This document shows, one piece after another, positions 26,472 to 32,213 of a stretch of DNA of 64,000 bases. A program made the translations under genes and the position numbers. The stretch's first letter is position 1, and each line of letters begins with the position of its first letter. The notes under the pieces are model-generated. The model had not been told where the DNA came from and ran no database searches. It was given only the letters and a program-made list of their open reading frames with translations. Source of the stretch: Mycobacteroides salmoniphilum (GTDB lineage Bacteria > Actinomycetota > Actinomycetes > Mycobacteriales > Mycobacteriaceae); contig NZ_CP024633.1 in assembly GCF_004924335.1 (NCBI RefSeq), positions 2,294,001-2,358,000 of the forward strand. Direction: 5' to 3'.

Positions 26472-28190
26472 TCAGGGCAGCGGCACCGACCAGAAGACCT
26501 GGGTACCGCCGCCGGCCGCCTCCGCGATGGTCAGTTTCCCTTGCAGCGCCGCAGCCCGGGTACCGAGATTGCGCAGACCCCGGTGGTTCGCGCCCTCGGG
26601 TATGCCTATCCCGTTGTCGGTGACGTCAACGACGACATCGTCGCCGACGGCGACCAGTACCGCCAATTCCGATGCTTTCGCATGACGGACAGCATTGCTT
26701 ACCGCCTCGCGCAGCACAGCTTGGGTGTGTTCGGCGATATCCGTCGGGACAACATCGAGCGGTCCGTTCATACGCACGGAGACTTGCAGCGAGGTGTCAT
26801 CGGTCAGCTCGGCGACGATAGCGCGCAGGGCCGCACGCAGCGAAGGGCCGTCGGTGGCAACAGTATGCAAGTCAAAAATGGCGGTACGAATGTCTTGAAT
26901 GACGTTGTGCAACTGATCGATGTGTTCGGCAAGCCGGGCAGCTACTCGCGGTGATTTAGCCGCGCGCCGGTGCGTTCCCTGCATGGCCAATCCGACAGCG
27001 AACAGCCGCTGGATGACGTGATCGTGAAGATCGCGGGCAATGCGGTCACGGTCGCCCAGCATCTGCAGTTCATTCATCGTGGTGCGGGTCTGGGCCTGTT
27101 CGAGCGCGAGTGCCGCCTGATCGGCGAAGGACGCGGCGATATCGAGCTGCCCGTCCCCGAAAGGCGCGCTGTCAGCCGGCCGGATCAGCAGGAGCACGCC
27201 AGAAGTGGAATCGCGTCCACTCAGCGGCAAGGCCATCGCCGGCCCAAATGCCACCTGCGTTCCCGCGGCGATATCGAACTCGAGCTGAGTTACGATGCGT
27301 GGCAGTCGATCTCGAAATGCCGCTCCGGAAGTCGACCCCTTCAGCGGAATACGTATTCCGCTGAGTTCTCGGCCCGAGGCGCCGGCGCATGCTGCCACGA
27401 CGAGCTCGCCGGCATCATCGTCATCATCGGACTCCCGGGGCAGCGCGATCAGGGCGTAGTCAGCATCGACCAGTGCGGCCGCGCGGATGGCTATCAGCTG
27501 CAGCGCCTCGGCGGGCTCGACCCCGGCGAGCAGCTTGGATGTCACTTCGCCAGCTGCCTGCAGCCAGCGCTGTCGCTGCCGGGCCTCTTCATAGAGGCGG
27601 GCGTTCTCCACAGCTATTCCGGCCGCACCGGCCAGCGCCCGCACGACTACCTCGTCATCGGCAGTGAATTCCTCGCCATTGCGTTTCTCGGTGAGGTACA
27701 GGCGCCCGAATACCTCGTTGCGCAATTGCACAGGCACGCCCAGAAAAGTGCGCATGGGTGGATGATTGGGCGGAAAACCGATGGATGACGGATGGTGCAT
27801 GATCTCGCTGAGCCGCAGCGGTTTGGCGTCGTCAATGACCACACCGAGGACACCGTGGCCGGTGGGCAGCGGCCCGATGAGTTCCCGGGTGGCATCGTCG
27901 ATGCCCTCGTAGATGAACTGGGTAAGCATGCCGTCCTGGCCCAGGACCCCGAGAGCTCCGTATTGGGCATCCACGAGCCCCATGGCGACTCTGACAATCT
28001 GGCGGAGTGTGACATCCAGTTCCAGCCCCGCGCTGACCGCCATCACGGCATCCAAAAGCGCATCGACCCGGACCCTGGTCTCAGTGATGATGCGCTCAAT
28101 ACGGCCCTGGACCTCCGCCAGCAGCTCGCTGAGCTGGATATGCGCAAGTTCCTTGGACACCGACTCGTCGGCACCCAACCGATCGGTCAC
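26472..28190 (-). CDS. devS: DevS/DosS redox and gas sensor histidine kinase
   Basis: A 572-aa kinase: GAF-A (~60-200), GAF-B (~225-365), HisKA_3 dimerisation domain with H-box [16 protein letters not shown] (His389), and HATPase (DNGIGIPEG). His143 in [17 protein letters not shown] aligns with the proximal haem ligand of M. tuberculosis DevS (His149), so haem-based sensing of O2, NO or CO is expected. It phosphorylates DevR, encoded 50 bp upstream. GTG start. Only one such kinase is present here; no DosT-like paralogue. Confidence 0.93.
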
Positions 28191-28240
28191 CTATTGAGTA
28201 TGCCGCAACCAGTCGATATTGGCTGGTCAAAGGCCAAGTC

Positions 28241-28903: not shown

Positions 28904-31314
28904 CGCGTCTCGTCCTCTCCCCATCGCCAATCCCGCACCTCCGGCAGGTCTTCACCGTGGGCACGTATCCACGCGTTGTGGCGTTCATGCATGCGGAGCA
29001 TCTCGTCCCTCAGCCCTTGGGCGTCAGCGCATTCCAACAGGCCCGGTGTGCGCTCCACTACATCGATCACCAGCTGGAATCGGTCCATCTTGTTCAGCAC
29101 CAGCATGTCGAAGGGTGTGGTGGTGGTGCCCTCCTCCAGGTAGCCGCGAACATGCAGGTTCGCATGACCTGCCCGACGGTAGGTAAGCCGGTGGATGAGC
29201 GCCGGGTATCCATGGAAGGCGAAGATCACAGGACGGTCCGCGGTGAACAGCGTGTCGTAATCGACATCGGACATGCCATGCGGGTGCTCGCTATCGGGTT
29301 GCAGACGAAACAGATCAACAACGTTGACTACCCGGGTCTTCAACTGCGGCAGATGCGTTCGCAGTATCGACACGGCGGCCAGTACCTCGATGGTGGGCAC
29401 GTCACCGGCACAGGCAAGAACAACGTCCGGAACGGCTCCGGCGTCACTGCTAGCCCATTCGAAGATATCGGCACCACGTGCGCAATGCAGTGCTGCCTGT
29501 TCAGGATTGAGCCATACCGGCGTGTAGTTCTTGCCGGCGACGATGACATTGATGTAGTCGCGGCTGGCCAGGCAATGCGCCGCAACCGACAGCAGAGTGT
29601 TGGCATCCGGCGGTAGGTAGATGCGCGCAACCTCCGCGCGTTTGTTCGCAATATTGTCGATGAAACCTGGATCCTGGTGGGAGAAGCCGTTATGGTCCTG
29701 ACGCCACACATGAGACGTCAGTAGATAATTCAGTGACGCGACGGGGCGGCGCCACGGTAGTTGCCTGCTGATCTTGAGCCATTTAGCGTGCTGGTTCACC
29801 ATCGAATCCACGATGTGGGCGAACGCCTCGTAGCAGGAGAACAGGCCATGGCGGCCTGTCAGCAAGTAACCCTCCAGCCAGCCCTGGCACAGGTGTTCGG
29901 ACAAGACCTCCATAACGCGACCATCTCGCGCCAGGTGCTGATCGCCGGGCAGAATCGTTGCGCTCCACTGTTTGTCCGTGACGTCATAGACGTCTCCGAG
30001 TTTGTTCGACTCGGTTTCGTCCGGCCCGAAGAGTCGGAAGTTCCTTCGGTCGGCGTTGCGGACCAACAATTCTCGAAGATAGCGGCCCAGCACCCGGGTC
30101 GGTGATGCGTCCACTGCACCCGGCTGGCCGGTCACCACACCGAAGGTTCCCGGAGCCGGCAGCGACAGTGGCGTGAGGAGCGTGCCACCGTTGGCATGGG
30201 GGTTAGACCCCATGCGTCGTTGCCCGGAGGGAATGAGCCGCGTTACCAGCTCATTCGGCGCTCCTGTTTCGTCGAAGAGCTCTTCGGGGTGGTAGGACCG
30301 CAGCCAGTGGGCAAGTTGGGCCCGATGTGTTGGGTTCTCGCGCACATTGGCGATGGGTACCTGGTGCGATCGCCATGTGCCCTCGACCTGATGTCCGTCG
30401 ACCACCGCTGGGCCCGTCCACCCTTTCGGACTGCGCAGAACGATCATGGGCCAGAAGGCACGATGTAAAATCGGTACCTGGCAACGGGACAACGTCTGAA
30501 AGTCGCGGATCTCCATGATCGCCCGGTCCAGTGCAGCGGCCATCTGTTGGTGCATATCTGCGGGTTCATGGCCCGTGACGTAGATGGGTGTGTAGCCGTA
30601 TCCCCGTAGCAGGCTCTCAAGCTCTTCATCGGTAATTCTCGATAGCACAGTGGGGTTGGCGATCTTGTAGCCGTTGAGATGAAGGATCGGTAGGACCGCA
30701 CCGTCGGTCGCGGCGCTGAGGAATTTGTTGGCGTGCCAGCTGGCGGCCAGTGGCCCGGTCTCGGCCTCGCCATCGCCGATCACGCAGACTGCGACCAGAT
30801 CCGGGTTGTCCAACACAGCGCCATAGGCATGGGCCAGGCTGTACCCCAGTTCGCCGCCCTCATGGATAGATCCGGGGACCTGCGGCGCTACATGACTAGG
30901 CACGCCCCCGGGAAATGAGAACTCCTGGAATAGCTTCCGCATACCCTGTCCGTCACGCGGGACATCGGGACGAATATCGCTATAACTGCCCTCTAGCCAC
31001 GTATTCGCGAACAGCGCGGGCCCGCCATGCCCAGGCCCGGTGACGTAGATCGCGTTGACATCGTGAGCGATGATGGCCCGATTCATGTGGGCGTAGATGA
31101 AATTCAGTCCCGGTGAGGTTCCCCAGTGCCCCAGCAGACGGGGCTTGATGTGCTCGGCCCGCAGAGGTGCCGTCAGCAGCGGATTTTCCATGAGATAGAT
31201 CTGACCGGCGGTGAGATAGTTCGCGGCCCGCCACTGCGCATCTACTGCCGCAAGCTGATCGGCAGGTAAGGCGCGCGGCTGATGGCGCGCGGTGCCTGGC
31301 GTTGCCATACTCAT
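28900..31314 (-). CDS. xfp: Xylulose-5-phosphate/fructose-6-phosphate phosphoketolase
   Basis: An 804-aa thiamine-diphosphate enzyme of standard length. Visible blocks: [69 protein letters not shown] (ThDP/Mg site), and [14 protein letters not shown]. It splits sugar phosphates with phosphate to acetyl phosphate plus a shorter sugar phosphate, giving ATP through acetate kinase without oxygen. ATG 31314 overlaps the usp stop (ATGA), and its own stop overlaps devR. Carbon flow through acetyl phosphate under hypoxia fits this location. Confidence 0.95.
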
Positions 31315-32213
31315 CGCTTCTCGTCTCCTGCATGTGAGCGAGCGACCAACACCGGGCAGGGAGCTTGGTGAATCAGGGCGTGACTAGTCGAGCCGAGAAA
31401 GAAGCCTGCGACATCGCCGCGTCCACGGCTGCCGACCACGAGCAGCTGTGCGTGCTGGGCCCAGTGCAGCAGGATGTCCGCGGGATTGCCCATCGCGACT
31501 ACCCGGCGCACGGTGACGTCGGGATATTTTTCCTGCCAGCCCGCCAGCCTCTCGGCGAGTATCTCAGTCTGCTGCTGCTCGGCGATATCCCAATCCATCA
31601 TGTTCCAGGCGGTGTACGCGTACACATAGCTCGGTGGCACTTCGCCCCCGGCATTCACGGCCACCAACTCGGCGCCGCGCATGGAGGCTTCCTCGAAGGC
31701 CCACGCGATTGCTTCCTCGCTTGAGGGAGATCCACTGACGCCGAGGATAACCGGGCCCGCTGGCGGAGCTCCCGACTCGCGAACGACTACCACGGGGCCG
31801 TGCCCCTTCGCGGTCAATGAGACCGACACCGACCCGGCCATCATCCCGGTGAAGCCGCCAAGCCCGCTAGATCCGACCACGGTAATGAATGCATCCTTGG
31901 ACAGCTCGACAAGTGTGGGCACGGGTTGAGCGTTTACCTTGGCGGTAGCCACTTCTAGATGGGGATGCAGGGCGAAGACGTGGTCCTTGGCCCGAGCAAG
32001 GAACTCCACGCCGTCGTTATCCATATGGTCGTAGAAGCTTGTCGACGCCGACAGGTTGAAGCCGTAACCGAAGCTGCCGTAATCGACAGCATGCACGAGC
32101 CGAAGGGGCAGATTGTGCCGTTCTGCCTCGGCCCCAGCCCATGTCAGTGCATGCAGAGAGGACGCAGATCCGTCGATGCCCACCAAAATGTATGGACGTG
32201 GTGTGGTGTTCAT
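31311..32213 (-). CDS. Universal stress protein (Rv3134c-position), first gene of the devRS operon
   Basis: A 300-aa tandem USP. Domain 1 starts [19 protein letters not shown]; domain 2 starts [19 protein letters not shown] and has an intact ATP loop ([19 protein letters not shown]). It occupies the place of Rv3134c, which precedes devRS in M. tuberculosis. It is the promoter-proximal gene of usp-xfp-devR-devS, with ATGA overlap to xfp. Two DevR-like boxes lie upstream in the shared promoter with the nitroreductase gene, so DevR probably autoregulates. Confidence 0.9.

Follow-up and report, generated by a model that had tools for sequence, protein, structure and literature searches.

Mycobacteria are regarded as obligate aerobes. 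Among the described dormancy systems, Rv3134c-devRS of Mycobacterium tuberculosis is a positively autoregulated operon in which a gene for a universal stress protein (USP), usp, is followed by devR and devS (PMC4973870). The same order is found in a stretch of 64,000 nucleotides (nt) of Mycobacteroides salmoniphilum (NZ_CP024633.1, positions 2,294,001 to 2,358,000; in the following the window), with the difference that a phosphoketolase gene, xfp, stands between usp and devR, that 4-nt overlaps join these genes and that the regulator pair is a second, accessory copy; an earlier note on this DNA had rightly stated that in M. tuberculosis only a USP gene precedes devR, and Rv3134c-devRS, which has no xfp, is the counterpart. 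Judged from sequence comparison, it is quite likely that an accessory, positively autoregulated devRS operon has been joined by an older, coupled usp-xfp cassette under DevR control, in which case xfp would mainly be an output of the system and not part of its signalling.

The gene cluster as such is already in print. In M. massiliense JCM 15300, the genes MMASJCM_2507-2524 have the order of the window, namely usp, usp, membrane protein, alcohol dehydrogenase (ADH), hypothetical protein, usp, xfp (803 amino acids, aa), DevR, kinase and SulP, and the printed coordinates give 4-nt overlaps at usp/xfp and xfp/DevR as in the window (PMC4263727). The DevR of 249 aa and its 34-nt overlap with the kinase equal the layout of G074, one of the genomes compared below, and for the kinase two entries are given as against the single devS of the window (PMC4263727). 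In this study of 2014, the cluster was described as a conserved region, specific to the subspecies and serving anaerobic life, with DevR named in a table and an anaerobic use of XFP and USP suggested; its authors think that M. abscessus and M. bolletii have lost it by deletion, and the passages on the cluster are silent on a second devRS, on DevR boxes and on a link between XFP and DevR (PMC4263727). The dosRS genes of M. abscessus, MAB_3891c-3890c, fit the core copy of devRS described below (L150), not the window operon, with 73% identity of the core DevR to that of M. tuberculosis as compared to about 72% reported (PMC10034137). In the OsdR/OsdK region of Streptomyces coelicolor, a DevR-family regulator likewise has usp, ADH and nitroreductase genes as neighbours, and the boxes there are of a similar kind, but unlike in the window operon a phosphoketolase is absent from the main text of that paper (PMC5069765). 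The accessible portions of the literature that combine phosphoketolase with DevR/DosR gave no report of the paralogy, of boxes before the operon or of a DevR-linked XFP clade; a regulon study of 2011 (Gerasimova et al.) could already report xfp as a member of DevR regulons in other mycobacteria. The operon, a variant of the Rv3134c-devRS kind, is thus partly in print; to it comes a wider link of DevR systems to a separate XFP clade. Such a clade would give some mycobacteria ATP from sugars without oxygen under a dormancy regulator.

All four genes of the operon were called on the minus strand (Table 1; positions refer to the whole window). The ATGA overlaps which join usp to xfp and xfp to devR, and the 50 base pairs (bp) between the devR stop and the GTG start of devS (28190), are exact to the base as the earlier note had described them. 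Four-base overlaps are frequent in operons, so the overlaps indicate an operon rather than a special device. No terminator-like site is present in the devR-devS gap, as the three found in the scan (3.2 expected) are all located inside genes. From gene order and overlaps, usp-xfp-devR-devS is predicted to be a translationally coupled operon, presumably read as a single transcript.

The names of xfp, devR and devS rest on domain or profile searches together with PDB searches, that of usp on Pfam alone. XFP is full-length with all three XFP domains, keeps the phosphoketolase motifs (chosen from the alignment) and scores 1366.8 bits against the NCBIfam phosphoketolase model NF003619, with a cut-off of 962. 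The accessory DevR combines a receiver with a LuxR-type output domain, and among PDB entries it matches M. tuberculosis DevR best (3c3w, 69% identity). Residues D8, D9, D54, T82 and K104 are kept, as are the equivalents of M. tuberculosis DevR K179, K182, N183, T198 and T205. The accessory DevS, with GAF domains carrying a putative haem histidine, HisKA_3 and HATPase, is by sequence a sensor kinase of the DevS/DosT type. Its GAF-A domain has 2vzw ('probable histidine kinase response regulator') as top match, the next four being sequences named DevS, and the histidine of the HPPMRTF motif, residue 143, aligns with the identical motif in the DevS structure 2y8h, of which H149 is the haem ligand.

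This pair is not the only one of its kind in the genome. A DevR search of the genome (4.78 megabases, Mb, one contig) returned 20 matches, and the best besides the accessory DevR itself, at C1:3712076-3712711, is about 77-78% identical to it. The corresponding core devRS, with devS at L150:7313-9016, lies 1.39 Mb from the window pair and adjoins rplA-rplK-nusG, encoding ribosomal proteins L1 and L11 and NusG; its stretch holds no xfp and no usp of the window kind alongside. The core DevR is closer to M. tuberculosis DevR than the accessory one (326 versus 300 bits; 73% versus 69% identity), and in the trees accessory and core pairs form sister groups (support 100/99 with DevS, 83/80 with DevR), with longer branches on the accessory side. 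The window pair, a group of its own, is therefore not orthologous to core dosRS of the MAB_3891c/3890c type but an accessory paralogue. Since a devRS nearer to the M. tuberculosis pair is located elsewhere in the genome, the designation of the window DevR as 'the hypoxia regulator' in the earlier note is not supported as it stands. Two paralogous DevRS pairs per cell would complicate regulon work built on a single dosRS.

When the core DevS was used as query against 396 sampled genomes of the genus, ten matched at 94-100%, followed by five accessory copies at 64-65% and then by matches of at most 58%. The ten genomes presumably represent one species complex, abscessus-chelonae; as they are treated as such, presence of the core pair in 10/10 is true by definition. 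The window operon is found in five of them (G000, G214, G267, G112 and G074, that is, the window and four fetched stretches) and is missing from G193, G322, G244, G116 and G334, which show just scattered DNA matches to the window cluster and for which an accessory DevS is not among the listed matches. No XFP was found in G193 and G244; the XFP of G116, like the second XFP of G112, corresponds to a 67% DNA match to the window xfp. As some close relatives have the operon and others lack it, natural comparisons with and without it are possible. G112 and G116 have nearly identical core DevS and, over the aligned part, identical core DevR, and the accessory operon is present only in G112.

Across the five operon genomes, in which XFP is 84-96% identical to that of the window, the xfp-devR overlap of 4 nt is kept without exception (ATGA in four, GTGA in G074), in agreement with the coupled operon proposed in the earlier note. 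The usp-xfp junction is a 4-nt overlap in three of these genomes and ATGATG (-1 or -4) in the other two; 50 bp separate devR from devS in 4/5, G074 having the longer devR which overlaps devS by 34 nt. Few fourfold-degenerate columns are invariant (usp 12/120, xfp 50/302, devR 11/85; 10-17%), so the silent sites change under a layout that is maintained. Near the xfp stop the five genomes share no conserved silent stretch which would hint at a private devR promoter: an internal promoter in the 3' end of xfp was considered and rejected, with only 4/16 invariant fourfold sites in codons 721-760 and 2/10 in codons 761-800.

The association of xfp with devRS extends beyond these genomes. An XFP at least 70% identical to that of the window is encoded by 11/396 genomes, with the next best at 67%. 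Twenty stretches, 19 with XFP and one with the core devRS, were fetched and their neighbouring genes listed. In the tree, the XFPs of the operon, of the G228 group and of Amycolatopsis form one clade (support 98/97), apart from the canonical mycobacterial XFP clade; the 71% identical XFPs of G107 and G275 fall elsewhere. In all nine mycobacterial members of the clade in this tree xfp is linked to devRS, for G357 with only devS inside the fetched stretch and devR beyond it, and none of the eight canonical xfp loci has devRS in its stretch. In G228, G357, G405 and G230 the usp-xfp unit stands apart from devRS, which is oppositely oriented and lies at a distance of 4.0-6.3 kilobases (kb) from the end of xfp. 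In Amycolatopsis rifamycinica, devR follows usp-xfp after a gap of 176 bp and box-like sites of its own are present. Coupling of usp to xfp (ATGA, GTGA or ATGATG) was found in 11/11 checked clade loci, nine mycobacterial and two from Amycolatopsis, with a 4-nt ATGA overlap in the four G228-group loci and one Amycolatopsis locus and GTGA in A. rifamycinica; the third Amycolatopsis locus, which begins too near xfp, was left out of this count. The xfp-devR overlap is confined to the five operon genomes, so the coupled usp-xfp cassette is older than its junction with devRS. In a wider collection of 80 XFP loci, eight are flanked by DevR/DevS-like genes (DevR at least 50% or DevS at least 38% identical), all within the 41 loci which are actinobacterial by title; where both flanks are nearly whole, the figure is 6/28 actinobacterial loci. 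Some Streptomyces XFP loci also have DevR-like genes nearby.

Upstream of the operon, candidate DevR sites were scored against the 14-position core DevR consensus as printed in PMC2947987. The full 20-bp palindromic consensus was useless for ranking sites in the window (best 14/20). The sites GGGACCTTTGACCG and GGGACTAATTGCTC lie in the region that separates usp from the divergent nitroreductase gene, and no other part of its alignment is as conserved (61/171 columns invariant elsewhere). With the candidate -10, which was picked by eye and is of the TANNNT type, the box before usp would be centred near -42. The operon may belong to the Rv3134c-devRS type, in which usp, devR and devS form one transcription unit with a DevR box before usp; gene order and a box-like site are present, with xfp as the extra gene. 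A search of the 4.78-Mb genome for the 13-mer GGGACYWWNGNCC gave 13 matches, which fall on 12 places and include the usp-promoter box and one site between rplA and core devR, 338 bp before the latter; as the pattern was chosen after the window box had been seen, the core-devR match is the sole independent test. The core box GGGACCAAAGACC is identical in 10/10 core-pair genomes at 131-347 bp before devR (131-133 bp in 4/10, 268-347 bp in 6/10; core devR starts in relatives were located by tblastn). Both pairs are thus preceded by DevR-box-like sites, which DevR may bind. In G000, in which alone this was examined, a 65-codon open reading frame (ORF) lies between the DevR box and core devR (L150:9712-10050). 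Among relatives, where positions were counted from match starts, the site GTGACTTTCGGCCA stands at -86 to -95 before usp-xfp in 4/4 G228-group loci (12/14), and GGGACTTCGGTCCC (13/14) precedes xfp of Lentzea.

The xfp gene thus looks like a DevR-controlled energy output, and its place in one gene string with devRS probably serves to let low oxygen induce the phosphoketolase. The haem GAF domain of DevS would sense low oxygen or nitric oxide, and phosphorylated DevR from the accessory and, given the similar box, the core pair may bind the sites in the usp-nitroreductase intergenic region, to drive usp-xfp-devR-devS in one direction and the nitroreductase gene in the other. XFP would then cleave xylulose-5-phosphate or fructose-6-phosphate, and the production of acetyl phosphate by XFP is documented (PMC6456759). 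Matches to ackA and pta are present and adjacent in the genome, so acetyl phosphate would be convertible, to ATP and acetate by AckA and to acetyl-CoA by Pta, and NADH may be reoxidised by the alcohol dehydrogenase encoded nearby. With devRS located behind xfp, levels of regulator and enzyme would rise together. That usp-xfp accompanies devRS also in layouts where it is not placed before devR argues for an output rather than a dedicated phosphodonor; the 4-nt usp-xfp overlap of the G228 group favours the same view.

Several observations weigh against this reading. No sigma-70 promoter was found in the scan, compared to 1.8 in shuffled sequences; the sigma-70 model suits mycobacteria poorly. 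There is no devRS near the XFP genes of G107 and G275, nor in the available flanks of two of the three Amycolatopsis loci. The G228-group site reaches just 12/14 in four close relatives, sites of 12/14 also precede canonical xfp in two of three loci scanned (G344 and G011), and scores do not exceed 11 before Amycolatopsis usp (two loci) and before xfp of Actinophytocola, G107 and G275; box scores alone thus fail to discriminate. As nine places in the window score 13/14, single sites carry little weight, and a reversed control pattern is commoner than the 13-mer (32 versus 13 matches), so that not rarity but only position can serve as an argument. Finally, growth at about 6% oxygen did not differ between M. 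massiliense and M. abscessus, with the isolates grouped by another island (PMC4263727).

The gene order might be of historical origin only, in that usp-xfp landed before devRS in a duplicated dormancy cluster and the overlaps reflect ordinary packing, with no functional tie between enzyme and regulator. The longer-branched accessory paralogue, the patchy cluster (5/10 genomes) and the general commonness of four-base overlaps agree with this. Overlap and order are maintained over XFP sequences that have diverged to 84-96% identity, though, the upstream box-like sites are conserved and linkage of XFP to devRS recurs in other lineages, which makes an order without function improbable.

The earlier note had also suggested, as an inference, that the enzyme could feed DevR directly. 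Acetyl phosphate made by XFP would in this case be the direct phosphodonor of the DevR encoded downstream, and the resulting positive feedback from metabolism would bypass or boost DevS. The underlying chemistry stands: acetyl phosphate is an in vitro phosphodonor for DosR at 50 mM (PMC12919924) and for OsdR (PMC5069765), in vitro binding by DosR and transcription are restored or raised by it, and D54 is phosphorylated after treatment with PknH and acetyl phosphate (PMC12919924). The coupling of xfp to devR in 5/5 genomes, the kept phospho-acceptor residues of DevR and the A. rifamycinica arrangement would also fit. On the other hand, 50 mM was the concentration in vitro, xfp is not upstream of devR in 4/9 mycobacterial members of the clade and in Lentzea, a freely diffusing product requires no adjacent gene, and a DevS with intact motifs is encoded in the same operon. 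Furthermore, M. tuberculosis without DevS and DosT fails to induce the regulon though devR is expressed, and overexpressed DevR acts without a phosphodonor (PMC4973870). No observation in the sequences calls for direct feeding of DevR, which is unlikely. Equally unlikely is a division of labour in which hypoxia induces XFP, the level of acetyl phosphate rises and the accessory DevR, co-translated and faster-changing, is phosphorylated by it; the accessory regulator would then read the carbon and energy state, and the core DevR oxygen. If true, fermentation would be tied directly to dormancy control, and dormancy would have a metabolic latch in every genome with fused usp-xfp and devR, that is, in the five genomes and perhaps A. 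rifamycinica. Very unlikely is the opposite sign, a negative feedback by which XFP-derived acetyl phosphate damps DevR through non-enzymatic lysine acetylation: K182 acetylation is reported to inhibit DNA binding of DosR and the equivalent lysine is kept as residue 181 of the accessory DevR, but the term acetyl phosphate is missing from the main texts of two papers on DosR acetylation.

Table 1. Operon genes, junctions, candidate control sites and neighbouring genes in the window
Feature	Position	Strand	Remarks
usp	31311-32213	-	300 aa; two-domain universal stress protein, leading gene of the operon; Pfam Usp E 2.9e-48, two stretches
xfp	28900-31314	-	804 aa; full-length XFP_N/XFP/XFP_C
devR, accessory copy	28241-28903	-	220 aa; NarL-family response regulator
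devS, accessory copy	26472-28190	-	572 aa, GTG start; GAF domains, HisKA_3, HATPase
usp stop/xfp start ATGA overlap	31311-31314	-	usp TGA 31313-31311, xfp ATG 31314-31312
xfp stop/devR start ATGA overlap	28900-28903	-	xfp TGA 28902-28900, devR ATG 28903-28901
DevR-box-like site GGGACCTTTGACCG	32285-32298	-	72-85 bp before usp ATG; 13/14 to consensus; 11/14 columns invariant in five genomes
DevR-box-like site GGGACTAATTGCTC	32369-32382	+	between usp and nitroreductase gene; 12/14 to consensus; 12/14 columns invariant
candidate -10 TAGCGT for usp	32256-32261	-	inside conserved block; by eye
box-like site GGGACTTACGACTC	35252-35265	+	between Rv1733c-family gene and usp2; 13/14
box-like site	19057		13/14
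box-like site	23109		12/14
Acg-family FMN oxidoreductase (Rv3131 type), nitroreductase	32438-33418	+	divergent; NF047509 291.7 bits, cut-off 199, scored on longer ORF 32141-33418
zinc alcohol dehydrogenase (adh_fam_2)	33447-34460	-	TIGR02822
Rv1733c-family protein	34502-35191	-	NF050032
SulP transporter	24392-26155	-	same cluster
additional usp gene	22108-23073	-	same cluster
usp gene	35146-36159	+	real start probably later
usp gene	36192-37064	+	same cluster

Upstream of the SulP gene (45 bp scanned) no good box-like site was found (best 10/14), and the best score between the two last usp genes is 9/14. The operon is embedded in a larger dormancy-type cluster (17486-37064) with genes for an AAA/zeta-like kinase, which resembles Rv2004c, a P-type ATPase, several USPs, VIT1, SulP, ADH, an Rv1733c-family protein and the Acg-type oxidoreductase; a nitroreductase of the Rv3131 type is also found near Rv3134c-devRS in M. 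tuberculosis. To the right of the cluster follow DUF222/HNH, FAD oxidoreductase and polA genes. Third-position G+C content of called ORFs is 0.61-0.75 in 17486-37064 versus 0.74-0.84 in 39721-52415, a contrast which might mark a different history of the cluster. A paralogue of the window usp is found elsewhere in G112, G116, G193, G244, G322 and G334 with 69-73% DNA identity over about 0.9 kb, possibly the MAB_2489-type usp. An adh_fam_2-type gene lies within about 2 kb of canonical xfp in 7/8 canonical loci (L161-L165, L168 and L169), 70-76% identical to the window ADH, so that an association of xfp with this type of ADH is seen in two distinct XFP clades.

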